Shown piece after piece: positions 2,778-24,099 of a DNA stretch of 64,000 nucleotides. The translations under genes were made by a program, and so were the position numbers. The notes under the pieces were generated by a model that did not search any database, had not been told where the DNA came from, and saw only the letters and a program-made list of their open reading frames with translations. The stretch comes from Clostridium sp. BJN0001. Its GTDB lineage: Bacteria; Bacillota; Clostridia; Clostridiales; Clostridiaceae. The stretch is taken from the NCBI RefSeq assembly GCF_022869825.1, contig NZ_CP094971.1, positions 621,501 to 685,500 on the forward strand. The letters are read 5' to 3'. Positions within the stretch are counted from its first letter, which is position 1, and every line of letters starts with the position of its first letter.

Positions 2778-3875
2778 ATGAAAATACTTAAATCTAATCC
2801 TGCAGAAGATGGATTTTTTATGCCAGCAGAGTTTTCAAAACATAAGGAAACTTTGATGATATGGCCAGAAAGACGTGATTCATGGCAGTATGGTGCTTAT
2901 GAAGCGAGAAAAGCGTTTAGAGAAGTTATTTTAAATATTTCAAAACATGAAAAAGTAACAGTTTGCGTAAGCGAAAGTCAATATGAAAATGCAAGAGCAT
3001 ATCTTTCACCTGAGGTAAGATTAGTTGAGATGTCAAGTAACGATTCTTGGGCGAGAGATTATGCTCCTACTTTTGTTAAAAATAAAGATGGGAAAGTAAG
3101 AGGAATTAATTGGTATTTTAATGCATGGGGCGGTCTTTATGACGGGCTTTATTTTCCGTGGGATAAAGATAATAAAATGGCATTAAAATTATGTGATCTT
3201 TATGATAAAGATGTTTATGATGCTCAGGATTTTGTTCTTGAAGGAGGCTCAATACATGTTGATGGTGAAGGAACGTGTATTGTAACTGAAAGCTGTCTTT
3301 TAAGTAAAGGAAGAAATCCTAATATGAGTAAAGATGAGATTGAAAAAAAGCTTAAAAGTTATCTTGGAGTTTCAAAAGTAATATGGCTTAAGCATGGTAT
3401 TTATAATGATGAAACAAATGAGCATGTTGATAATATATGTGCGTTTGTAAAACCTGCAGAGGTTGTTCTTGCATGGACAGATGATAAAAACGATCCTCAA
3501 TATAATATGTCTAAAAGCTGTCTTGAAATTCTTGAAAATGAAACAGATGCAAAGGGAAGAAAAATAAAAGTACATAAGCTTTATCAGCCTTCTCCTGTAT
3601 ACGTAACAAAAGAGGAATGTGAAGGACTTGATACTATGGATGGACTTCCTGTAAGGCAGGTTAATGAAAGGCTTGCTGCATCTTATGTTAATTTTTATAT
3701 ATGTAATGGAGCTATAATAATGCCGGGGTTTAATGATCCTATGGACATAAAAGCGAAAAAGACACTTCAAAGCATTTTTAAAGATAGAGAAGTTTATCAA
3801 GTTTATGCTAGAAATATTTTAATAGGCGGCGGAAATATCCACTGCATTACGCAGCAGATTCCATCTTACGATTAA
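2778..3875 (+). CDS. aguA: Agmatine deiminase
   Basis: A 365-residue member of the peptidyl-arginine-deiminase fold. It hydrolyses agmatine to N-carbamoylputrescine and ammonia. Family landmarks are all present: the N-terminal DGFFMPAEF and MIWPERRDSWQYGA, the NDSWARDYAPTF substrate-binding run (about residues 91-102), DEHVDN-like sequence at about 217, and the C-terminal GGGNIHCITQQ with the catalytic cysteine (about residue 357). Length matches the family. It lies 10 bases before N-carbamoylputrescine amidase, the next enzyme of the pathway, so the two are surely co-transcribed. Arginine decarboxylase, which makes agmatine, is encoded 3.4 kb downstream. Confidence 0.96.
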   Translation: MKILKSNPAEDGFFMPAEFSKHKETLMIWPERRDSWQYGAYEARKAFREVILNISKHEKVTVCVSESQYENARAYLSPEVRLVEMSSNDSWARDYAPTFVKNKDGKVRGINWYFNAWGGLYDGLYFPWDKDNKMALKLCDLYDKDVYDAQDFVLEGGSIHVDGEGTCIVTESCLLSKGRNPNMSKDEIEKKLKSYLGVSKVIWLKHGIYNDETNEHVDNICAFVKPAEVVLAWTDDKNDPQYNMSKSCLEILENETDAKGRKIKVHKLYQPSPVYVTKEECEGLDTMDGLPVRQVNERLAASYVNFYICNGAIIMPGFNDPMDIKAKKTLQSIFKDREVYQVYARNILIGGGNIHCITQQIPSYD

Positions 3876-3884
3876 TAAAAAAGG

Positions 3885-4784
3885 ATGAAGAAAAATATGA
3901 GAAATGTAAAAATTGCCGCAGTTCAGATGAGCTGCTCAAAAGATAGAGATGAAAATATAAAAAAAGCAGAAGAATTTGTTAGAAAAGCAGCTAAAGATGG
4001 TGCAAATATTATTCTCTTACCTGAACTTTTTGAAAATATGTATTTTTGTCAGGAAAGAAATTATGATTATTATAACTTAGCAGAAGAAACTATGAAAAAT
4101 AAGGCAGTACAAAGATTTATGGAAGTTGCAAAAGAGCTTGATGTTGTTATACCAGTAAGCTTTTATGAAAAGTCAATGAATAATACATTTAATACTGTTG
4201 CTATAATAGATGCTGATGGAAAGCTTCTTGGAACATATAGAAAAACACATATACCAGATGACCATTTTTATCAAGAAAAGTTTTATTTTACTCCTGGAGA
4301 CACAGGATTTAAGGTATTTTGTACAAAGTATGGTAAAATAGGAGTAGGGATATGCTGGGATCAGTGGTTCCCTGAATCTGCAAGGTGCATGGCACTTTTA
4401 GGCGCAGAAATACTTTTATACCCAACAGCAATTGGGAAAGAACCTATACTCGAAGTAGATAGTATGATGCACTGGAGAAGATGTATGGTGGGCCACGCAG
4501 CTTCAAATATAATACCTCTTGCAGCAGCAAATAGAGTAGGCTATGAAGAAGTAAAACCTTCTAAGGACAATAATTATCAAAAATCATCATTAACATTTTA
4601 CGGTTCATCTTTTATAGCAGATGAGACAGGTGAAGTTGTTAAATCTTTAGGAAGGGAAGAGGAGGGATATATAGTTTCACAGTTTGATCTTGATGCGGTT
4701 TATGAAATGCGAATGAGCTGGGGAGTATTTAGAGATAGAAGACCAGAATATTATAAGATAATTTCTAGTAAAATATCTGATTAA
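3885..4784 (+). CDS. aguB: N-carbamoylputrescine amidase
   Basis: A 299-residue nitrilase-superfamily hydrolase converting N-carbamoylputrescine to putrescine, CO2 and ammonia. The Glu-Lys-Cys triad is visible: glutamate in LLPELFEN (about residue 47), lysine in TYRKTHIPDDHF (about 120), cysteine in GVGICWDQWFPE (about 157). The H-DDHFYQEKFYFTPGD stretch is typical of the AguB branch and separates it from omega-amidases. It follows aguA by 10 bases. A second ATG (MRNVKIAAVQ) four codons in could be the real start; both are near a weak GGATG-like site. It completes the arginine-agmatine-putrescine route. Confidence 0.95.
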   Translation: MKKNMRNVKIAAVQMSCSKDRDENIKKAEEFVRKAAKDGANIILLPELFENMYFCQERNYDYYNLAEETMKNKAVQRFMEVAKELDVVIPVSFYEKSMNNTFNTVAIIDADGKLLGTYRKTHIPDDHFYQEKFYFTPGDTGFKVFCTKYGKIGVGICWDQWFPESARCMALLGAEILLYPTAIGKEPILEVDSMMHWRRCMVGHAASNIIPLAAANRVGYEEVKPSKDNNYQKSSLTFYGSSFIADETGEVVKSLGREEEGYIVSQFDLDAVYEMRMSWGVFRDRRPEYYKIISSKISD

Positions 4785-6217: not shown

Positions 6218-6266
6218 TATGTACTTTATACTAAATATTTATTAATAAATAAACTAATTATAAGTA

Positions 6267-6294
6267 AAAAAAACAGCGAAAGCTGTTTTTTTTT
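6267..6294 (+). terminator. Rho-independent terminator after pepV
   Basis: Perfect 7-bp stem AAACAGC / GCTGTTT around a GAAA tetraloop, followed by nine T. It separates the aguAB-pepV unit from speD. Confidence 0.88.
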
Positions 6295-6434: not shown

Positions 6435-7250
6435 ATGTTAAGGGTGGAGAACAAGCTTAAGCTGTATGGCTTTAATAATCTCACTAAGACTCTTAGTTTT
6501 AATATTTATGATGTCTGTTATGCGAAAAGTGAACGGGAACAGAAGGATTATATTGCATATATAGATGAACAGTATAATTCTGAAAGACTGACGAAAATAT
6601 TATGTAAAGTTACCAGTATTATTGGTGCACATGTTCTTAATATATCAAAGCAGGATTATGATCCTCAAGGAGCGAGTGTTACAATTCTTGTATCTGAGAA
6701 GAATCTTGAAAAAGGCGAGATAGATAAGTCATGCAATCTTGGCAAATTTGACATAGCATCTAAAAGAGATACTGTGCTTGCTCATCTTGATAAGAGCCAT
6801 GTTACAGTGCATACTTATCCTGAGTATCATCCTGATAATTCAATTGCAACTTTTAGAGTTGACATAGATGTATCAACATGTGGAGAAATATCACCTCTTA
6901 ATGTTTTAAATTATCTTATTGGAAGCTTTGATTCTGATATAATAACAATCGATTACAGAGTAAGGGGCTTTACAAGAGATGTTAATGGTAAGAAACTTTT
7001 TATGGATCATAAGATAACATCAATACAGGATTATATTGATAATGATACACTCAGAAAATATGATGCCATGGATATAAACGTTTATCAGGCGAATATTTTT
7101 CATACAAAGATGCTTATTAAAGAGATTGAACTTCAAAATTATCTTTTTAATACAGATGTGTATGAACTTTTGCCTAAAACACGGCTTGCAATTACAGACA
7201 GCCTTAGAAAAGAAATGATTGAAATATTTAGTGGGACAAATATTTATTAG
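6435..7250 (+). CDS. speD: S-adenosylmethionine decarboxylase proenzyme, long E. coli-type
   Basis: The protein tracks the E. coli-type AdoMet decarboxylase along its whole length: [34 protein letters not shown], then [12 protein letters not shown]. In this family the proenzyme cleaves itself before the serine of KSH (about residue 116 here) to form the pyruvoyl group. [17 protein letters not shown] and [15 protein letters not shown] follow. It makes decarboxylated AdoMet, the aminopropyl donor for SpeE. This is the roughly 270-residue class, not the roughly 120-residue class found in Bacillus. A GTG at 6432 is also in frame, but the ATG at 6435 has better spacing from GAAAGG at 6424-6429. 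speA follows immediately. Confidence 0.95.
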
Positions 7251-7268
7251 GAGGTGGAAGAAAGACAA

Positions 7269-8726
7269 ATGGAAAAAAAATTAGATCACTCAAAAGCACC
7301 TATTTATGAAGCACTTATGAGATATAAAGCGGCAAGGATTGTACCATTTGATGTACCAGGCCATAAGCAAGGACGTGGAAATCCTATGCTTAAAGAATTT
7401 TTAGGAGAGAAATGTCTTTGTGTAGACGTAAACTCTATGAAACCGCTCGACAACTTATGTCATCCTGTAGGTGTAATTAAAGAGGCAGAAGAGCTTGCAG
7501 CAGATGCTTTTTCAGCTAAACATGCTTTTTTTATGATAAATGGAACAACATCTGCAGTACAGGCAATGATTATGAGCGTCTGTAAAGAAGGCGATAAAAT
7601 AATAATGCCGAGAAATGTTCATAGAAGTGCTATTAATTCTCTTATAATAAGCGGAGCTGTACCTGTATATATAAATCCAGGAGTAAATAAAAAGCTTGGA
7701 ATTTCTCTTGGAATGTCGGCTTACGATGTAAAAAAAGCAATTGAAGAGAATAAAGATGCAAAAGCTATTTTAGTAAACAATCCTACATATTATGGAATAT
7801 GCTCAGATTTAAAAGAGATAACTAAAATAGCTCATGAAAATGGTATGTACGTATTAGTTGATGAAGCACATGGAGCTCATTTTTATTTTGGTGATGATAT
7901 GCCGCCATCTGCTATGGAGTGTGGTGCTGATATGTCAGCTGTAAGTATGCATAAAACAGGTGGATCTCTTACTCAAAGTTCTATTCTTCTTTTAAATTGT
8001 GATATAAGTGAAGGGTACGTAAGACAGATAATAAATCTTACTCAGACTACAAGTGCTTCATACCTTCTTATGTCATCATTAGACCTCGCACGAAGAGACC
8101 TTGTTATGAACGGAAAAGAAATTTTTAAAAGAGTAAAGAAGCTTGTTTCATATGCGAGAGATGAGATAAATAAGATAGGTGGATTTTACGCATATTCACG
8201 TGAACTTATTGATAAAAATGAAGTGTATGATTTTGATGATACAAAGCTTTCAATCTATACAGGAGATATAGGACTTGCAGGAATTGAAGTATATGATATT
8301 TTAAGAGATGAATATGGAATACAGATAGAATTTGGAGATATAGGAAATATTCTTGCGATAATCTCTGTAGGAGATAGGCAGCAGTCTATAGAGAGGCTTA
8401 TATCAGCACTTTATGATATAAAAAGAACATATAAAAAAGATAAAAATGATATGTTTGAGGATGAGTATATACCTCCTCATGTTTCTCTTGCACCTAAAAA
8501 AGCATTTTATTCAGATAAAGAGATGATAGAATTAGAAAAGTGCAGAGGCAGAGTATGTGCTGAATTTGTAATGTGCTATCCGCCTGGAATTCCTATTCTT
8601 GCACCGGGTGAGAGAATAACGGAAAAAATAATTGAATATATAGAATATGCAAAGAAAAAGGGATGTTTTCTCACAGGAACAGAAGATATAAATGTAGATA
8701 ATATAAATGTTGTAAAGGAAGTGTAG
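7269..8726 (+). CDS. speA: Arginine decarboxylase (Orn/Lys/Arg decarboxylase family, Bacillus SpeA type)
   Basis: A PLP enzyme of the aspartate-aminotransferase fold. Early motifs are FDVPGHKQGRG and NGTTSAVQAMI. The aspartate pairing with PLP is in LVDEAHGAHF (about residue 200). The Schiff-base lysine is in SMHKTGGSLTQSS (about 225). The C-terminal domain has YPPGIPILAPGE. The family also includes lysine and ornithine decarboxylases. Arginine is inferred because the product agmatine is used by aguAB nearby and because length and sequence fit the Bacillus SpeA branch. An in-frame GTG at 7254 overlaps the AGGAGG at 7249-7254 and so cannot use it; ATG 7269 is preferred although its spacing is long. 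The stop is three bases before speE. Confidence 0.9.
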   Translation: MEKKLDHSKAPIYEALMRYKAARIVPFDVPGHKQGRGNPMLKEFLGEKCLCVDVNSMKPLDNLCHPVGVIKEAEELAADAFSAKHAFFMINGTTSAVQAMIMSVCKEGDKIIMPRNVHRSAINSLIISGAVPVYINPGVNKKLGISLGMSAYDVKKAIEENKDAKAILVNNPTYYGICSDLKEITKIAHENGMYVLVDEAHGAHFYFGDDMPPSAMECGADMSAVSMHKTGGSLTQSSILLLNCDISEGYVRQIINLTQTTSASYLLMSSLDLARRDLVMNGKEIFKRVKKLVSYARDEINKIGGFYAYSRELIDKNEVYDFDDTKLSIYTGDIGLAGIEVYDILRDEYGIQIEFGDIGNILAIISVGDRQQSIERLISALYDIKRTYKKDKNDMFEDEYIPPHVSLAPKKAFYSDKEMIELEKCRGRVCAEFVMCYPPGIPILAPGERITEKIIEYIEYAKKKGCFLTGTEDINVDNINVVKEV

Positions 8727-8729
8727 AAT

Positions 8730-9587
8730 ATGGAATTGTGGTATACAGAAGAGCATACAGACAATGTAAGATTTTCACTTAAAGTAAAAAAACAGATTTA
8801 TAGTGATAAAAGTGAATTTCAAAAAATAGATATATTAGACACAGAAGAATTTGGAAAGATACTAACTCTTGATGGGCTTATGATGGTTACAGAAAAAGAT
8901 GAATTTATATATCATGATATGATAGTCCATGTACCTATGGCAGTAAATCCAAATATTAAGAATGTACTTGTTATAGGAGCAGGAGATGGTGGCGCAATAA
9001 GAGAGCTTACAAGATACGAAACTATAGAAAATATAGATATGGTTGAAATAGATAAAAAAGTTGTTGAAGTGTGCAAAAAGTATCTCCCTCAGACAGCATG
9101 TAAATTAGATGATAAAAGAGTGAACATTTATTATGAAGATGGATTAAGATTTGTTAGAAAAAAAGAAAATGAATATGATCTTATAATAGTAGATTCAACA
9201 GATCCATTTGGACCAGGAGAAGGACTATTTACAAGAGAGTTTTATGGAAATTGTCATAATGCTCTAAAAGATGATGGAATACTTGTAAATCAGCATGAAA
9301 GTCCTTTTTATGATTATTATAGGGATTCAATGGCATCAGCACATGATAAAATATCAAAAATATTTAAAATACACAGAGTCTATCAGGCTCATATACCTAC
9401 TTATCCATCAGGTCATTGGCTTTTTGGATTTGGATCAAAGAAATACGATCCTGTTTCTGATTTAAAAAGTGATTTATGGAATAAATTAAACATAAAAACA
9501 AAATACTATAATACAGAGCTTCATGTAGGTGCTTTTGCATTACCAACATATGTAAAAGAGCTGCTTGAGAAAAATAAAAATAATTAA
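8730..9587 (+). CDS. speE: Spermidine synthase (putrescine aminopropyltransferase)
   Basis: A 285-residue aminopropyltransferase. It begins with the typical MELWYTEEHTDNVRFS and has LDGLMMVTEKDEFIYHDM. The Rossmann loop for decarboxylated AdoMet is VIGAGDGGAIREL (about residues 81-93), followed by VEIDKKVVE. The catalytic aspartate region is VDSTDPFGPGEGLF (about 155-168), then YPSGHWLFGFGSK. It transfers the aminopropyl group from decarboxylated AdoMet to putrescine. It is sandwiched between speA (3 bases) and the carboxynorspermidine synthase gene (21 bases), so both triamine pathways appear to share one transcript. Whether it acts on putrescine or on a longer polyamine cannot be told by eye. 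Confidence 0.94.
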   Translation: MELWYTEEHTDNVRFSLKVKKQIYSDKSEFQKIDILDTEEFGKILTLDGLMMVTEKDEFIYHDMIVHVPMAVNPNIKNVLVIGAGDGGAIRELTRYETIENIDMVEIDKKVVEVCKKYLPQTACKLDDKRVNIYYEDGLRFVRKKENEYDLIIVDSTDPFGPGEGLFTREFYGNCHNALKDDGILVNQHESPFYDYYRDSMASAHDKISKIFKIHRVYQAHIPTYPSGHWLFGFGSKKYDPVSDLKSDLWNKLNIKTKYYNTELHVGAFALPTYVKELLEKNKNN

Positions 9588-9608
9588 GTTAGTATGGAGG
9601 AATGAAAA

Positions 9609-10808
9609 ATGGGAAGAGCTTTAATAATTGGTGCTGGAGGAGTAGCAAGTGTTGCAATCCACAAATGCTGCCAAAATTCTGATGTTTTTGAGGAGATATG
9701 TATAGCAAGTAGAACATTATCTAAATGTGATGCATTAAAAAAGAAACTTGAAGGCGGAAAGACTAAAATTCAAACTGCTAAAGTAGATGCAAATAATGTA
9801 GAGGAATTAGTAGCATTAATTAAGAAATTTAAGCCAGATGTTGTTTTAAATCTTGCGCTTCCATATCAGGATTTAACAATCATGGATGCATGCTTAGAGT
9901 GTAAAGTTAATTATGTTGATACAGCAAATTATGAACCTGAAGATACAGCAAAATTTGAATATAAATGGCAGTGGGCATATAAAGAAAAATTTGAGAAAGC
10001 TGGCATAACAGCACTTCTTGGAAGTGGATTTGATCCTGGAGTTACAGGAGTATTTAGTGCATATGCACAGAAACATTATTTTGATGAAATAAATTATATA
10101 GATATTGTTGATGCAAATGCTGGAGATCATGGATATCCATTTGCAACTAATTTCAACCCTGAAATTAATATAAGAGAAGTTACAGCAAAGGGAAGCTACT
10201 TAGAAGACGGAAAGTGGGTTGAAACAGAGCCATTAGAATTAAAGAGAGTTTACGATCTTCCAGAAATAGGACCTAAAGATATTTATCTTCTTCATCATGA
10301 AGAGCTTGAATCATTAGGACTTAATATAAAAGGAATTAAGAGAATAAGATTCTGGATGACATTCTCTGAGAATTATTTAACTCATTTAAAAGTTCTTGAA
10401 AATGTAGGAATGACATCAATTAAGCCAATAGATTTTGAAGGACAGAAAATAGTTCCACTTCAGTTCTTAAAGGCAGTTTTACCAGATCCTGCATCACTAG
10501 GTCCTAGAACAAAAGGAAAAACAAATATAGGATGTATTTTTCAGGGAGTTAAAGACGGAAAACCTAGAACTTATTATATTTATAATGTTTGTGATCATCA
10601 AGAATGTTATAAAGAAGTAGGCTCACAGGCAATTTCTTATACAACAGGAGTTCCAGCAATGATAGGAACAAGTCTTCTTATGAAAGGCGTGTGGAATAAG
10701 CCTGGCGTTCATAATATAGAAGAATTTGATCCAGATCCATTCATGGAAGAGCTTACAAAATTCGGTCTACCATGGAAAGAAGACTTTAAACCAGTATTAA
10801 TAAAATAG
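9609..10808 (+). CDS. Carboxynorspermidine/carboxyspermidine synthase (CASDH, saccharopine dehydrogenase-like)
   Basis: A 399-residue reductase of the LYS9-like family. It has an N-terminal nucleotide-binding loop LIIGAGGVASVAIHKC (about residues 5-20), then NLALPYQDLTIMDAC, NYVDTANYE and GSGFDPGVTGVF. Members known as CASDH condense L-aspartate semialdehyde with putrescine or diaminopropane using NADPH. The products are carboxyspermidine or carboxynorspermidine. Saccharopine dehydrogenase is the alternative reading, but the decarboxylase NspC encoded 12 bases downstream makes the polyamine role much more likely. It starts with ATG after GGAGG at 9596-9600. Confidence 0.93.
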   Translation: MGRALIIGAGGVASVAIHKCCQNSDVFEEICIASRTLSKCDALKKKLEGGKTKIQTAKVDANNVEELVALIKKFKPDVVLNLALPYQDLTIMDACLECKVNYVDTANYEPEDTAKFEYKWQWAYKEKFEKAGITALLGSGFDPGVTGVFSAYAQKHYFDEINYIDIVDANAGDHGYPFATNFNPEINIREVTAKGSYLEDGKWVETEPLELKRVYDLPEIGPKDIYLLHHEELESLGLNIKGIKRIRFWMTFSENYLTHLKVLENVGMTSIKPIDFEGQKIVPLQFLKAVLPDPASLGPRTKGKTNIGCIFQGVKDGKPRTYYIYNVCDHQECYKEVGSQAISYTTGVPAMIGTSLLMKGVWNKPGVHNIEEFDPDPFMEELTKFGLPWKEDFKPVLIK

Positions 10809-10820
10809 GATGGTAAATGA

Positions 10821-11960
10821 ATGATTAATTTTGATTTAGAAAAACTTCCATCACCTTGTTATGTAGTTGATGAAAAACTTTTAAAAGAAAATCTTGAAAA
10901 ATTAAAATATGTTGAAGATAAGGGAGGATGTAAAATCATACTTGCACTTAAAGCTTTTTCAATGTATGAAACATTCCCTATTATATCAAAATATCTCTAT
11001 GGAGTTACTGCAAGTTCATTATTTGAAGCAAGACTTGGCGCTGAAGAGATGGGAAAAGAAGTGCATATTTTTTCTCCTGCATATAGAGAAGATGAATTTG
11101 ATGAAATTTTAAAATATGCAGATCATATTGATTTTAATTCATTCAGTCAATGGGATAAATATAAAAATAAAGTAAAGAGCGTAAAGTCTAAGAAAATAGA
11201 ATGTGGAATAAGAATTAATCCAGAATATTCAGAGATAGAAACAGATATGTATAATCCATGTTTTGAAAATTCAAGATTAGGAGTTACTTTAGATAATTTT
11301 GACGAAAATGATCTTGAAGGGATAGATGGACTTCATTTTCATACTATGTGTGAGCAAAATTCAGATACTCTTTTAAGAACTATAAAAGTTGTAGATAAAA
11401 AATTTGGAAAGTACATATCTAAAATGAAGTGGATAAACTTTGGCGGTGGTCATCACATTACAAGAAGTGACTATGATTTAGAAAAGTTAATAGAAGCTAT
11501 AAAGTTTATAAAAGATAAATATAAAGTAGATGTATATTTAGAACCAGGTGAAGCTGTTGCGTTAAATGCAGGATTTTTAGTATGCACTGTTTTAGACACT
11601 ATAAAAAATGGAATGAATCTTGCAATAGTAGACACATCTGCAGCATGTCATATGCCAGATGTTCTTGAAATGCCATATAGACCTAATATAATAGGCAGCG
11701 GTAAAAAAGATGAACTAAAATTTACGTATAGGCTTGGCGGACCAACATGTCTTGCAGGTGATGTAATTGGAGATTATTCATTTAATGAACCTCTAAAGGC
11801 AGGAGATAAGCTTGTATTCTGCGATATGGCAATATACACTATGGTTAAGAATAATACATTTAATGGAATTAATCTTCCATCTATAGTTTATAATACAGAG
11901 AAAAATGGACCTAAGGTTATAAAGACATTTGGATATGAGGACTTTAAGAGAAGAATTTGA
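10821..11960 (+). CDS. nspC: Carboxynorspermidine/carboxyspermidine decarboxylase
   Basis: A 379-residue PLP decarboxylase of the alanine-racemase fold. Its start, LPSPCYVVDEKLLKENL, is typical. The PLP lysine is in IILALKAFSMYE (about residue 43). HFHTMCEQ (about 173-180), NFGGGHHITR (about 212-221) and YLEPGEAVAL (about 240-249) form the cofactor site. The C-terminal GPTCLAGDVIGDYSF carries the second-subunit cysteine. It removes CO2 from carboxyspermidine to give spermidine, or from carboxynorspermidine to give norspermidine. It is the last gene of the speD-speA-speE-CASDH-nspC run. A structured repeat begins right after its stop codon. Confidence 0.95.
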   Translation: MINFDLEKLPSPCYVVDEKLLKENLEKLKYVEDKGGCKIILALKAFSMYETFPIISKYLYGVTASSLFEARLGAEEMGKEVHIFSPAYREDEFDEILKYADHIDFNSFSQWDKYKNKVKSVKSKKIECGIRINPEYSEIETDMYNPCFENSRLGVTLDNFDENDLEGIDGLHFHTMCEQNSDTLLRTIKVVDKKFGKYISKMKWINFGGGHHITRSDYDLEKLIEAIKFIKDKYKVDVYLEPGEAVALNAGFLVCTVLDTIKNGMNLAIVDTSAACHMPDVLEMPYRPNIIGSGKKDELKFTYRLGGPTCLAGDVIGDYSFNEPLKAGDKLVFCDMAIYTMVKNNTFNGINLPSIVYNTEKNGPKVIKTFGYEDFKRRI

Positions 11961-12219
11961 TAAATGACAAAGAACAAATGACAAATGACAAATCAGGATG
12001 TTTCTGCTCAAAATCGCAGAAACCCAAAATTTATTTAGCTTTCGCTTCAGGCGAAAGCTTTAGTATTTTGCGAGAATCGCAAAATACTATACAATGAAAT
12101 TCCTGCGGAATTTCCACCTCATTTGTCATTTGTCCTTTAACAATTTGTCCTTTGGTATTGGTTTCCACCTACTTTGTCATTTGTCATTTGAAAGTTTGTC
12201 CTTTGCACTGTCCTTTGTA
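11961..12219. repeat. Intergenic hairpin-chain repeat, copy A
   Basis: The stretch between nspC and the convergent methyltransferase is wholly repeat. Left flank: 7-bp units of AAATGAC/AAAGAAC type. The core has four hairpins. Hp1 is 12000-12023 (GTTTCTGC / GCAGAAAC). Hp2 is 12037-12059 (AGCTTTCGC / GCGAAAGCT). Hp3 is 12061-12089, a perfect 12-bp stem TAGTATTTTGCG / CGCAAAATACTA. Hp4 is 12096-12114 (GAAATTCC / GGAATTTC). Right flank: units of TTTGTCA/TTTGTCC type, inverted relative to the left, with the phrase TTTCCACCT repeated. Three other copies occur in this window. No coding capacity is credible. Confidence 0.9.
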
Positions 12220-14321: not shown

Positions 14322-15212
14322 ATGTATAAAATTATGAATAAACAGGAGCTTTCGAGCAATATCTTTTTAATGGATATTAAAGCCGAAAGAGTAGCAAAAG
14401 CAGCAAAGCCAGGTCAGTTTATTATCGTAAAAAATACTGAAAAAGGTGAAAGAGTACCTTTAACAGTTGCAGATATTGATAAGGAAAAAGGAACTATAAC
14501 AATTGTATTTCAAACAGTTGGAAAGAGCACTAAAGAACTTTCAAATTTTGAAGCTAATCAATCTGTCTGTGATTTTGTAGGTCCACTTGGTACACCTTCT
14601 GAATTTATTGAAGAAGATATAGAAGAACTTAAAAAGAAAAAATATATCTTCATAGCTGGTGGAGTTGGAGCTGCGCCTGTATATCCTCAAGTAAAATGGA
14701 TGAAAGAACATTCAATTGATGTAGATGTAATTTTGGGAAGCAGAACAAAAGATTTAATTATTTTTGAAGATAAGCTAAGGGCAGTTTCTAAAAATCTTTA
14801 TGTAGCAACTGATGATGGAAGCTACGGATTTAATGGAAGAGTTACTGACTGTTTAACTGATTTAGTAAAAAATCAAGGAAAGAAATATGATCATGCAGTA
14901 GTAATAGGACCTATGATAATGATGAAATTCATGGCACAGCTTACTAAAAAGTTAGAAATACCAACAACTGTAAGTTTAAATACTATAATGGTAGATGGAA
15001 CTGGAATGTGTGGAGCATGCAGAGTAAATGTTGGAGGGGAAATTAAGTTTGCATGTGTTGATGGACCAGAATTTGACGGACATTTAGTTGATTTTGATCA
15101 AGCAATGAGAAGACAGACAATGTATAAAACTGAAGAGGGAAGAGCAATGTTAAAAGCAGAAGAAGGAGACACTCATAAAAATGGTGGCTGCGGATGCGGA
15201 GGTAATAAGTAA
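14322..15212 (+). CDS. nfnA: NADH-dependent ferredoxin:NADP+ oxidoreductase, small subunit NfnA
   Basis: A 296-residue ferredoxin-NADP reductase-like protein. FAD-binding residues lie in ERVPLTVADIDKEKGTI. The NAD-binding loop is FIAGGVGAAPVYPQVKW (about residues 110-126). The C-terminal cysteines in GTGMCGACRVNVGGEIKFAC (about 227-246) hold a [2Fe-2S] cluster as in NfnA and dihydroorotate dehydrogenase PyrK. The last residues are Cys/Gly rich (GGCGCGG). It overlaps the next gene by one base, the standard nfnA-nfnB order. NfnAB bifurcates electrons between NADPH, NAD+ and ferredoxin in the cytoplasm of clostridia. It is often annotated as sulfide dehydrogenase or as a dihydroorotate dehydrogenase-like protein. 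Confidence 0.92.
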   Translation: MYKIMNKQELSSNIFLMDIKAERVAKAAKPGQFIIVKNTEKGERVPLTVADIDKEKGTITIVFQTVGKSTKELSNFEANQSVCDFVGPLGTPSEFIEEDIEELKKKKYIFIAGGVGAAPVYPQVKWMKEHSIDVDVILGSRTKDLIIFEDKLRAVSKNLYVATDDGSYGFNGRVTDCLTDLVKNQGKKYDHAVVIGPMIMMKFMAQLTKKLEIPTTVSLNTIMVDGTGMCGACRVNVGGEIKFACVDGPEFDGHLVDFDQAMRRQTMYKTEEGRAMLKAEEGDTHKNGGCGCGGNK

Positions 15213-16600
15213 TGAATAATGATAGAATGAAAAAAGTACCAGTAAGGGAACAAGATCCAAAAGTAAGAGCTACAAATTTCGAAGAAGTTTGTTTAGGATA
15301 TAATGAAGAGGAAGCTGTAAAAGAAGCATCAAGATGTTTAACATGTAAGAATCCACAATGCGTTAAAGGATGTCCTGTATCAATTCAGATACCAGATTTT
15401 ATAGCTTATGTAAAAGAAGGAAAATTTGAAGAAGCAGCAAAAGAAATTGCTAAGTATAGTGCACTTCCTGCAGTATGTGGAAGAGTATGTCCACAGGAAA
15501 AGCAGTGTGAAGGAAAATGTGTACTTGGAATAAAAGGAGAAGCTGTTTCAATTGGAAAGCTTGAAAGATTCGTAGCAGATTATGCAGCTGAGCATAATGT
15601 TGATTTAAGCGAAACTGAACCTAAAAATGGAATGAAAGTTGCAGTTATAGGTTCTGGTCCATCAGGACTTACATGTGCAGGAGACTTAGCTAAAAAGGGA
15701 TATGATGTAACAATCTTTGAAGCACTTCATAAAGCAGGTGGAGTTCTTGAATATGGTATACCAGAATTCAGACTTCCAAAAGAAAAAGTTGTTAAAAAAC
15801 AAGTTGAAAACATAAAGAAACTTGGAGTAAAGATTGAAACTAACGTTATAATAGGAAGAACAATTACAGTTGATGAATTATTTGAAACAGAAGGATTTAA
15901 AGCTGTATTTATAGGTTCAGGTGCAGGTCTTCCAAGATTCATGGGAATAGATGGAGAAAATGCTAACGGAGTATATTCTGCTAATGAATTCTTAACAAGA
16001 GTAAACTTAATGAAAGCAGCACTTGACGATTATGACACACCTGTTAAAGTCGGAAAGAAGGTTGCAGTAGTAGGTGGAGGAAATGTTGCTATGGATGCTG
16101 CAAGAACAGCATTAAGACTTGGCTCAGAAAGTCATATAGTATACAGAAGAGGAGAAGAGGAACTTCCAGCAAGAAAAGAAGAAGTACATCATGCGAAGCA
16201 GGAAGGAATAATCTTTGATCTTTTAGTAAATCCTACTGAAATCTTAACTGATGAAAATGGATGGGTTAAAGGAATGAAATGCGTTAAAATGCAATTAGGT
16301 CAGCCTGATGCATCTGGAAGAAGAAGACCAGAAGCTATAGAAGGATCTGAATTTGTTATGGATGTAGACACAGTTATAATGTCACTTGGAACATCTCCAA
16401 ATCCTTTAATTTCTTCAACAACAGAAGGACTTGAAATAAACAAGAGAAGATGTATAATAGCTGAAGAAGAAACAGGCCTTACAACAAAAGAAGCTGTTTA
16501 TGCAGGCGGAGACGCAGTTACAGGAGCAGCTACTGTAATACTAGCTATGGGTGCAGGAAAGAAAGCTGCTAAAGCTATTGATGAGTATTTAAAAAAGTAG
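15212..16600 (+). CDS. nfnB: NfnB, large subunit (glutamate synthase small-subunit-like)
   Basis: A 462-residue flavoprotein. The N-terminal cysteines in CLTCKNPQCVKGCP (about residues 42-55) and CGRVCPQEKQCEGKC (about 93-107) bind [4Fe-4S] clusters. The first FAD loop is VAVIGSGPSGLTCAG (about 144-158) and the NADPH loop is VAVVGGGNVAMDAARTA (about 286-302). The C-terminal GGDAVTGAATVILAMGAGKKAA completes the FAD site. Such proteins are widely labelled 'homotetrameric NADPH glutamate synthase, GltA', but direct pairing with NfnA indicates the bifurcating transhydrogenase. It would make NADPH from NADH and reduced ferredoxin, which fits NADPH use by GdhA and CASDH. Confidence 0.92.
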   Translation: MNNDRMKKVPVREQDPKVRATNFEEVCLGYNEEEAVKEASRCLTCKNPQCVKGCPVSIQIPDFIAYVKEGKFEEAAKEIAKYSALPAVCGRVCPQEKQCEGKCVLGIKGEAVSIGKLERFVADYAAEHNVDLSETEPKNGMKVAVIGSGPSGLTCAGDLAKKGYDVTIFEALHKAGGVLEYGIPEFRLPKEKVVKKQVENIKKLGVKIETNVIIGRTITVDELFETEGFKAVFIGSGAGLPRFMGIDGENANGVYSANEFLTRVNLMKAALDDYDTPVKVGKKVAVVGGGNVAMDAARTALRLGSESHIVYRRGEEELPARKEEVHHAKQEGIIFDLLVNPTEILTDENGWVKGMKCVKMQLGQPDASGRRRPEAIEGSEFVMDVDTVIMSLGTSPNPLISSTTEGLEINKRRCIIAEEETGLTTKEAVYAGGDAVTGAATVILAMGAGKKAAKAIDEYLKK

Positions 16601-21698: not shown

Positions 21699-22799
21699 AT
21701 GAAATATTCAATTAAGATTCCTGTAAATGTATTTCAGGAATCGGAATGTATAAAAAATCATAAAGAAATATTTAAAGAATGTGGGAAAAAAGCATTTATT
21801 GTAACAGGAAAACATTCAGCTAGAGCCTGTGGAGCACTTAACGATATTGAGGAAGTTTTGAAAATTCAAGATATAGAATATGAAATTTTTGATGAAATAG
21901 AAAATAATCCTTCTTTAGAAACTGTTTCAAGAGCATCAGATAGGGCAAAGAAATTTGGAGCAGATTTTGTAATAGGAATAGGCGGAGGATCTCCACTTGA
22001 TGCATCAAAAGCAATAGCAGTAATTGCAGCAGGCAATATAGAGCCTATTGAAATATTTAAGATGGAGTTTAAAAAAGCACTTCCAATAATTGCAATTCCA
22101 ACAACATCAGGAACAGGAAGTGAAGTTACTCCATATAGTGTGCTCTTAAGAAAAGATTTAAAGACTAAAGTAAGCTTTGGAAACAAGTATACTTTTGCAA
22201 AATATGCGTTGCTTGATTCTAAGTATACAGAGTCTTTAAGGATAGATACAACAATAGATACAGCAATCGATGCCTTTACACATTCTTTTGAAGGATATTT
22301 AAGCAATCGTGCAACGCCTATTACAGATGCTTTTGCAATAGAGGGAATTAAAAATTTTGCAGATTCTATTAAGCAATTAAAATCTTATTATATAAGTGAA
22401 GATATAAGAGAAAAACTTATGTATGCATCTATGATAGGAGGAATAGTAATTGCACATACTGGTGTTACTATTGTTCATGGAATGGGCTATTGCTATACAT
22501 ATTTTAAAGGCATTGCTCATGGAAAAGCAAATGGATTTTTAACTAAAAATTATATTGACTATATATACGATGTTAAAAAAGAAAAAATTGATAATGTATT
22601 AAATATTTTAGGATGCAAAGACGTTCTTGAGTTTGAGTCTCTTATTGAAAAACTTATTGGCAAAGCACCTAAAATTACAGATGAAGAAATAGAAATGTAT
22701 ACATCTCTTACAATGCTTCAAACTGGGAGCATAAAAAATACAGCAAGAGAATTAAGTAAAAACGATATAAAATCACTATGGGCTAGTATGAATAAATAG
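21699..22799 (+). CDS. Iron-containing alcohol dehydrogenase (group III)
   Basis: A 366-residue dehydrogenase. The NAD(P)-binding GIGGGSPLDASKAIA (about residues 93-107) and AIPTTSGTGSEVTPYSVL (about 130-147) are present. Iron ligands fit the family pattern: D and H in TIDAFTHSFEGYLS (about 190-203), and histidines in VHGMGYCYTYFKGIAHGKANG (about 259-279; key residues HG and AHG). It would interconvert an aldehyde and alcohol with NAD(P)H. Next to a class III aminotransferase it plausibly reduces an omega-semialdehyde (for example succinic or glutaric semialdehyde) to an omega-hydroxy acid. That substrate is inference. Confidence 0.87.
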   Translation: MKYSIKIPVNVFQESECIKNHKEIFKECGKKAFIVTGKHSARACGALNDIEEVLKIQDIEYEIFDEIENNPSLETVSRASDRAKKFGADFVIGIGGGSPLDASKAIAVIAAGNIEPIEIFKMEFKKALPIIAIPTTSGTGSEVTPYSVLLRKDLKTKVSFGNKYTFAKYALLDSKYTESLRIDTTIDTAIDAFTHSFEGYLSNRATPITDAFAIEGIKNFADSIKQLKSYYISEDIREKLMYASMIGGIVIAHTGVTIVHGMGYCYTYFKGIAHGKANGFLTKNYIDYIYDVKKEKIDNVLNILGCKDVLEFESLIEKLIGKAPKITDEEIEMYTSLTMLQTGSIKNTARELSKNDIKSLWASMNK

Positions 22800-22815
22800 A
22801 AGGGAAGTAATAAAA

Positions 22816-24099
22816 ATGGAAAGTCTATATGAAAGATGTATGAAAGTAATGCCTCCAACTGCTAAAAGAGCAACAACACTTGGAGTCATAAAAGGTGAAG
22901 GAATATATTTATATACAGATGATGGAAGAAAAATAATTGATTTTGCAAGTGGTGTTGCAGTATGCAACATAGGACATAATCATCCAAAAGTTGTAGAAGC
23001 TGCTAAAGCACAGATAGACAAGCTTATACATGGTGGACATAATGTAGTATATTATGAATCATATGTTAAACTTGCAGAAAAACTTGTAGAACTTACAGGA
23101 TCTGATACAATGGCATATTTTAGTAATTCAGGCGCGGAAGTTAATGAAGGAGCTTTAAAACTTGCAAAGTTTGTAACTAAAAGACCTGCGATTATTTCTT
23201 TTAAAGGAGGATTTCATGGAAGAACTCTTGCAGCAGCATCTATAACAGCTTCAAGTTCACAATATAGAAAAAATTATGAGGGAATGCTCCCAAGTGTTTA
23301 TTTTTTGGAATATCCTAATCTTTATCGTACACCATATGAGATTAAAGATGGGGAAGATTGTCCAGAACAATATTTTAAGCAATTTGATGAATTATTCCAC
23401 GATCTTGTAGATCCATATTCAGTAGCAGCTATTATTATGGAACCTGTTCAAGGTGAGGGAGGATATATAGCTGCACCAAAAAGTTTTCTTGAGTATGTAA
23501 GAAAAATATGTACTAAATATGGTATAATGTTAATATTTGATGAAGTTCAGACTGGTTTTGGACGTACAGGAAAATTATTTGCATGGCAAAATTTTAATAT
23601 AAAACCTGATATTTTTACATGTGCAAAAGGAATAGCTTCAGGCTTTCCATTAGGAGCTATAATTGCTAAAAAAGAAATTATGGAGAAATGGATACCTGGT
23701 GCACATGGTGGTACATTTGGAGGAAATCCTGTTTCTTGCGCAGCTTCTCTTGCAACTATTGATGTTCTTAACGATGGAGCAATTGAAAATGCAGCAAAGA
23801 TGGGAGAATATCTTAATAAAAAGCTTATGAAACTTAAAGAAAAATATACATTTATAGGTGATGTAAGAGGAATTGGTCTTATGCAGGCTCTTGAATTTGT
23901 AAAAGATAGAGATACTAAAGAACCAGATATGGAACTTACGGTAAAAATTAAAGAAAAAGCACTTGAAAAAGGACTTTTACTTTTAACATGTGGAACTTAT
24001 AAAAATGTAATAAGATTTATTGCACCTACAATTGTAAAGAAAGAAGAGATGGATGAAGCTCTTAAAATATTTGAGGAAACGTTAATGGAGATTAAGTAG
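22816..24099 (+). CDS. Class III aminotransferase, 4-aminobutyrate/omega-amino acid type
   Basis: A 427-residue PLP aminotransferase. Cofactor motifs are SNSGAEVNEGALKLAK (about residues 101-116), FKGGFHGRTLAAASIT (about 131-146) and MEPVQGEGGYIA. The PLP aspartate is in LIFDEVQTGFGRTG (about 236-249). The Schiff-base lysine is in CAKGIASGFPLGA (about 271-283), and HGGTFGGNPVSCAA closes the site. The pattern matches GabT-like enzymes that move the terminal amino group of GABA, 5-aminovalerate, beta-alanine or putrescine to 2-oxoglutarate. It follows the iron alcohol dehydrogenase by 16 bases, supporting amino acid to hydroxy acid fermentation. The exact substrate is not readable. Confidence 0.88.
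   Translation: MESLYERCMKVMPPTAKRATTLGVIKGEGIYLYTDDGRKIIDFASGVAVCNIGHNHPKVVEAAKAQIDKLIHGGHNVVYYESYVKLAEKLVELTGSDTMAYFSNSGAEVNEGALKLAKFVTKRPAIISFKGGFHGRTLAAASITASSSQYRKNYEGMLPSVYFLEYPNLYRTPYEIKDGEDCPEQYFKQFDELFHDLVDPYSVAAIIMEPVQGEGGYIAAPKSFLEYVRKICTKYGIMLIFDEVQTGFGRTGKLFAWQNFNIKPDIFTCAKGIASGFPLGAIIAKKEIMEKWIPGAHGGTFGGNPVSCAASLATIDVLNDGAIENAAKMGEYLNKKLMKLKEKYTFIGDVRGIGLMQALEFVKDRDTKEPDMELTVKIKEKALEKGLLLLTCGTYKNVIRFIAPTIVKKEEMDEALKIFEETLMEIK

Follow-up and report, generated by a model that had tools for sequence, protein, structure and literature searches.

An intact hybrid polyamine operon without an agmatinase gene in Clostridium sp. BJN0001, with AguA and AguB as the probable replacement

Two routes of aminopropyl transfer, one dependent on aspartate semialdehyde and one on decarboxylated S-adenosylmethionine (AdoMet), have been described together in Clostridium leptum. 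The C. leptum operon encodes an AdoMet decarboxylase, an arginine decarboxylase, a spermidine synthase, an agmatine ureohydrolase, CASDH and CASDC, and was said to suggest two paths to spermidine (PMC10413350, Fig. 1B legend). Expressed in Escherichia coli, the C. leptum CASDH/CASDC pair yielded N1-aminopropylagmatine and spermidine and no spermine, with N1-aminopropylagmatine about 150-fold above that from the A. tumefaciens pair; C. leptum makes its spermidine chiefly via N1-aminopropylagmatine, and its aminopropyltransferase is a specific spermine synthase (PMC11999265). Spermidine by the CASDH route with spermine by SpeE is also proposed there for related cases, and four of five aminopropyltransferases from dual-route genomes were spermine synthases. 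Here, we describe a related locus in Clostridium sp. BJN0001, in which speD, speA, speE, a CASDH gene and nspC (encoding CASDC) occupy positions 6435–11960 of a 64,000 nt stretch of contig NZ_CP094971.1 (hereafter the window).

The five genes are intact ORFs (open reading frames) on the + strand, and are consecutive, as the preliminary description had reported, with intergenic gaps of 3, 3, 21 and 12 bases (Table 1). Among the best 80 of 587 confirmed CASDH loci from other genomes, a sample biased to near relatives, speE lay within the fetched stretch at 45, so the association of these genes is not due to chance. The window genome co-encodes CASDH/CASDC and AdoMet decarboxylase/aminopropyltransferase, and shares with C. 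leptum, also a member of the Bacillota with both routes, the AdoMet decarboxylase, arginine decarboxylase, SpeE homologue, CASDH and CASDC. In contrast, the agmatine ureohydrolase (agmatinase, SpeB) lies inside the C. leptum operon, whereas in the window genome it is absent and aguA–aguB lies upstream of the run. The locus is an intact hybrid polyamine operon of the published kind. The preliminary description had seen two complete spermidine routes in this one run; the run is real, but speB is missing and guanidine removal would need aguA and aguB, which lie outside it. By analogy with relatives, on which all enzyme activities and products proposed for this genome are modelled, we consider it probable (roughly 65 %) that this is a hybrid operon of the C. 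leptum kind minus the agmatinase, with AguA/AguB acting instead, CASDH/NspC making spermidine and SpeD/SpeE making mainly spermine.

The family membership of the gene products is clear. The start of speD was taken as the ATG at 6435 (the mechanical ORF begins at GTG 6432), and the product translated from there has a DKSH motif at residue 119, presumably the processing site. SpeE is the sole match to the N-terminal SpeE domain in the window genome, and the other SpeE domain has a second match, of 25 bits, elsewhere. The CASDH matched the carboxynorspermidine synthase model NF043000 at E 2e-124 and 416 bits, below a cut-off of 800 that none of 79 related genomes reached. It could be aligned to PDB 4RL6, which we take to be the S. 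pneumoniae protein, and over residues 1–393 to PDB 8DEB, the B. fragilis CASDH. The catalytic His-Glu-Glu at 230–232 is kept in all 68 CASDH rows, Glu190 maps to Glu188 of the B. fragilis enzyme, and Ser144 of the latter is Thr here (residue roles from PMC10413350). SpeA is a short, 490-aa form of the Orn/Lys/Arg decarboxylase family (PF01276); its substrate is likely arginine, by analogy with the C. leptum and S. pneumoniae homologues, which are described as arginine decarboxylases (PMC11999265, PMC7531197).

Table 1. Positions of polyamine genes and terminator-like hairpins in the window
Feature	Position	Strand	Assignment and support
aguA	2778..3875	+	agmatine deiminase; TIGR03380 556 bits, cut-off 382
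aguB	3885..4784	+	N-carbamoylputrescine amidase; TIGR03381 437 bits, cut-off 410
hairpin	6266..6293	listed for -	arms end in A/T runs, between pepV and speD; consensus match
speD	6435..7250	+	S-adenosylmethionine decarboxylase (E. coli class); TIGR03331 432 bits, cut-off 256
speA	7254..8726	+	short aspartate-aminotransferase-fold decarboxylase, likely arginine decarboxylase; PF01276 258 bits
speE	8730..9587	+	aminopropyltransferase, probable spermine synthase; PRK00811 405 bits, cut-off 260; TIGR00417
CASDH / CAPADH	9609..10808	+	aspartate-semialdehyde-dependent carboxyaminopropyl transfer; alignments to PDB 8DEB, 4RL6; HEE at 230-232
nspC / CASDC	10821..11960	+	pyridoxal phosphate decarboxylase of carboxy intermediate; TIGR01047 532 bits, cut-off 409
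terminator-like hairpin after nspC	12037..12059	+	consensus match only

The window genome is a single contig of 2,688,791 bases, 99.98 % complete. A profile search found no PF00491 (ureohydrolase family) match anywhere in it; a search of the window with SpeB gave chance matches only (best E 2.3). The genome has one AguA, and its gene adjoins aguB at a distance of nine bases. Across the best 80 CASDH loci, the commonest order was speD-speA-speE-speB-casdh-nspC, found at 24, with speB identified from its translation and the genomes confirmed by PF00491. The window's order without speB, for which the preliminary description had proposed a survey, recurred at 10 loci, but is less common than the order containing speB, and the agmatinase gene often sits between speE and CASDH in relatives. 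Anaerosporobacter faecicola (L023) shares the window's arrangement, with aguA-aguB ahead of speD-speA-speE-casdh-nspC. At some of 69 loci (including at least two duplicates) speB lay 3′ of nspC or the aspartate semialdehyde module came first; such varied orders indicate that the operon behaves as modules. Two loci (L084 and L120, in genomes G043 and G035) read speA-speE-casdh-nspC-aguA-aguB, and speD was not found at either; we take this arrangement to resemble the S. pneumoniae cluster.

We surveyed genomes encoding both CASDH and SpeE (hybrid genomes, whatever their speD state) for AguA and for a strong ureohydrolase match (E<1e-70). Among 69 such genomes, 26 had AguA only, 42 the ureohydrolase only, one had both and none had neither (Fisher p = 4e-18, kinship ignored). 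Two duplicates had been removed from this count (L001 = G034, L011 = G012); L033, where the contig ends before speE, was omitted, and L006, where the contig end truncates speE, was retained. The sole genome with both (G027) has a ureohydrolase 31 % identical to the operon SpeB. The same division appeared in the 24 CASDH genomes of the genus (AguA only 13, ureohydrolase only 10, both 1), and two further relatives, G072 and G077, had the ureohydrolase only. Hybrid loci without speB came from genomes with AguA and no strong ureohydrolase in 14 of 14 cases, and those with speB from genomes with a strong ureohydrolase and no AguA in 18 of 18 and a further 13 of 13. Weak ureohydrolase matches (<60 bits) were present in four of the 26 AguA-only genomes (G006, G042 and the genomes of L032 and L044). 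One AguA genome holds a short ureohydrolase fragment (G042:C137:4338-4502), possibly a decayed agmatinase, which covers 56 profile positions and is interrupted by an in-frame stop. Within the genus, AguA was found in 14 of 24 genomes with CASDH versus one of 24 without (p 9e-5). The near-exclusive exchange of SpeB and AguA is well supported.

When the AguA/SpeB state was placed on a CASDH tree of 68 rows, 12 changes were required, 11 of them forced by well-supported branches, and the nearest relative of the window CASDH (91 % identity) sits in a SpeB genome. Transfer of CASDH genes could be another source of the mixed states. If a single residue decided the substrate, each of the 11 independent pairs should show it changed. 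Alignment columns were ranked by frequency difference and the top five per protein were taken to an independent-pairs test, for which the outcomes cover positions 355, 399 and 55 of CASDH and five positions each of SpeE, NspC, SpeD and SpeA. In CASDH the strongest association was at residue 355, with a change in about four of the 11 pairs, and no ranked column of the other four proteins went beyond a few changing pairs. The power of this test is low, because reaching p 0.05 takes six informative pairs, more than any column offered, and the result shows only that no ranked column switched everywhere. A repeated, near-exclusive exchange that no ranked residue tracks suggests that AguA/AguB are able to do the job of SpeB for the operon; they seem to meet the same need, and in the window genome the two probably stand in for SpeB.

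Comparison of the five genes with three relatives (G047, G021 and G022) gave dN of 0.06–0.18 against dS of 0.9–1.7 or saturated. That one route is a decaying relic was rejected on the basis of dN well below dS in all five genes, together with the presence of the catalytic motifs and of SpeE in 24 of 24 CASDH-bearing genus genomes (48 genus genomes, including the window's own, were examined); we regard a relic as highly improbable, and, as the preliminary description had argued, neither route looks like one. Intact modules under purifying selection would also suit two redundant spermidine routes that alternate with methionine or NADPH supply, and aminopropyltransferases of dual-route genomes do yield some spermidine (PMC11999265). 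However, the single gene run argues for joint expression, as predicted from its layout, every Rfam family stayed below its gathering score in the 64-kb window, which gives no sign of riboswitch control, and the tested relatives use one route for spermidine and the other for spermine (PMC11999265), so that redundancy is unlikely here and nothing found supports such switching. The idea that SpeE extends spermidine to a tetraamine while the CASDH route makes spermidine, also raised in the preliminary description, matches what is reported for C. leptum (PMC11999265); for the window the same products would be expected from its relatives.

In the hybrid operon that we favour, SpeA would convert arginine to agmatine, CASDH and NspC would use aspartate semialdehyde for the first aminopropyl addition and supply the bulk of the spermidine, and SpeD/SpeE would add an aminopropyl group from decarboxylated AdoMet, chiefly turning spermidine into spermine. 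AguA and then AguB would strip the guanidine group from agmatine, from N1-aminopropylagmatine, or from both. The sequence is compatible with either agmatine or putrescine as the CASDH substrate. Should it be agmatine, as for the C. leptum enzyme, the deimination of N1-aminopropylagmatine has to fall to AguA and the release of spermidine from N-carbamoylspermidine to AguB, giving the series agmatine, N1-aminopropylagmatine (by CASDH/NspC), N-carbamoylspermidine (by AguA) and spermidine (by AguB). If CASDH takes putrescine, the exchange of SpeB for AguA/AguB is an ordinary one. We lean slightly, at somewhat under even odds, to addition of the aminopropyl group before guanidine removal. Our tentative proposal is that AguA/AguB act on the triamine in arginine decarboxylase-dependent bacteria that combine CASDH with AguA/AguB and have no agmatinase, the window organism among them and perhaps Bacteroides, and that free putrescine is not required.

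The reverse order, in which AguA/AguB make putrescine before extension, and putrescine or spermidine is then the substrate of CASDH and SpeE, would be a plain replacement of one route by another, and is a serious possibility that we place a little below an even chance. The C. leptum CASDH does use putrescine, with a kcat/Km of 74 per M per s, and putrescine is taken as the CASDH substrate by the authors of PMC10413350 and PMC10135574. However, the Km of the C. leptum enzyme for putrescine is 5 mM, with no preference over diaminopropane (PMC10413350), and the high N1-aminopropylagmatine output of the C. leptum pair relative to the A. tumefaciens pair also speaks against putrescine (PMC11999265). 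The window CASDH is 42–43 % identical to four alphaproteobacterial CASDHs and 84.7 % identical to that of Faecalispora. We take Faecalispora to belong to the C. leptum group. At the active site the window enzyme has (H/Y)HEELES and not the GHDEVHS of the four alphaproteobacterial proteins (4 versus 19 chosen rows), kin of which use putrescine and spermidine; this difference is a further point against putrescine as first substrate. The comparison took seven of 40 plasmid rows listed (110 records) and left out Qingshengfaniella, Chelatococcus and Pseudochrobactrum, so the motif split may fail for some Alphaproteobacteria; the match from Qingshengfaniella, presumably an alphaproteobacterium, is 58 % identical.

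The deiminase and amidase themselves have also been characterized in ways that favour putrescine formation first. The AguB enzymes studied act almost exclusively on N-carbamoylputrescine (PMC4812014), and in plant AguA a gate loop closes over agmatine (PMC6447857). The Medicago AguB binds the tail amine through a Glu that is conserved in the window protein (GKEP versus GSEP, by our own numbering; PMC4812014). Because the tail amine of agmatine lies at the entrance of the AguA channel, and the entrance of AguB is funnel-like (PMC4812014, PMC6447857), both enzymes may admit a longer tail. Two deeply split types of AguA, of 16 and 21 rows, occur in hybrid genomes and share no special residue at the 20 positions inspected, which again suits the putrescine-first order. 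The window AguA is of type 1; the type-2 rows come from genomes with CASDH and SpeE in 13 of 21 cases, and the remaining eight from CASDH genomes of whatever SpeE state. Glu215 of AguA (TNEH, TNGH elsewhere) was considered as a mark of triamine use and rejected: it is present in 14 of 16 type-1 rows, the absences being L097 (G009, with AguA and SpeE and no CASDH) and L129, and it appears dispensable because Gly takes its place in 21 of 21 type-2 rows, 13 of them from genomes with both CASDH and SpeE. Sporobacter termitidis (G087) has two AguA genes, one of each type (L129 and L128).

In the carboxyaminopropylagmatine pathway of Synechocystis, a ureohydrolase presumably frees spermidine, unlike in the window genome, with its lack of a PF00491 match. 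What the two share is the aspartate-semialdehyde-dependent extension of agmatine by CASDH/CASDC homologues (CAPADH/CAPADC, as cited in PMC11999265). The AIH/NCPAH/CASDH/CASDC route of B. thetaiotaomicron resembles the window in combining AguA/AguB with CASDH/CASDC, and loss of its AguB (ncpah) removed most spermidine and caused two unidentified amines to accumulate, neither of them N-carbamoylputrescine (PMC10135574). This outcome counts against the putrescine-first order, although the two amines could instead arise from CASDH acting on N-carbamoylputrescine. Our control genome, Bacteroides ihuae, gave matches for CASDH and AguA but none for PF00491; unlike the window genome it had no SpeE match, and hence has no spermine module. 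An agmatine ureohydrolase is stated to be present in B. fragilis (PMC10413350). Isotope data from Bacteroides, which their authors read as agmatine-to-spermidine flux (PMC11812404), were judged to be confounded because the aminopropyl group, being derived from aspartate, could itself bring in 13C2 label.

Several observations weigh against the proposed division between spermidine and spermine, or against the modules acting together. SpeE shares D86-G-G88 and E106 with published spermine synthases, as do all 66 SpeEs compared, but these motifs fail to single out spermidine synthases, and as proof of spermine synthesis they were dropped. The Thermotoga maritima spermidine synthase presumably fits them likewise. 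The aminopropyltransferase of Sporomusa ovata, from a dual-route genome, made spermidine, and spermine was undetectable (PMC11999265). The S. pneumoniae cluster resembles the window in its short arginine decarboxylase, speE, CASDH, nspC and agmatine deiminase, with ureohydrolase activity also mentioned for it, but has no annotated speD (PMC10413350, PMC7531197, PMC7990898), whereas the window has a full module for decarboxylated AdoMet; the modules thus need not work as one. Finally, our survey counted AguA, and 35 of 37 AguA rows had AguB within the same stretch.

A gene for a PepV-type dipeptidase (PRK07318; 4811-6217) lies between aguB and speD. The hairpin that follows it may be used on the + strand, setting aguA-aguB-pepV apart from the speD-nspC unit. 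These transcript limits are suggestive, as a scan gave four terminator-like sites against 3.2 expected. Directly upstream of aguA, 763-2706 encodes a protein of 647 aa that carries a SpoIIE-type phosphatase domain (PF07228). Near the CASDH operon, adjoining genes at 14322-16600 match the NAD-binding and NADPH-dependent glutamate synthase halves of PRK12778, a pair that we take to be NfnAB-like; CASDH relatives use NADPH. Further downstream (21699-24099), a gene for an iron alcohol dehydrogenase-like protein adjoins that of an aminotransferase near 4-aminobutyrate transaminases, possibly reflecting amine or γ-aminobutyrate metabolism.

Both routes have been reported to coexist before (PMC10413350, PMC11999265). 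The SpeB/AguA exchange and the N-carbamoylspermidine step were not found in the literature searched, outside which most subscription papers fall, and a printed use of 'carbamoylspermidine' seems to be a slip for carboxyspermidine. The locus is a variant of the published operon without an agmatinase, and points to a possible unrecorded step in spermidine synthesis. The dozen or so replacements of SpeB by AguA/AguB on the CASDH tree are natural experiments on what SpeB does in the pathway; they suggest that AguA/AguB can do whatever that is, which is testable through N-carbamoylspermidine as an intermediate. If true, action of AguA/AguB on the triamine could explain the unidentified amines of the B. 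thetaiotaomicron ncpah mutant, and the findings bear on which gut bacteria make spermine.

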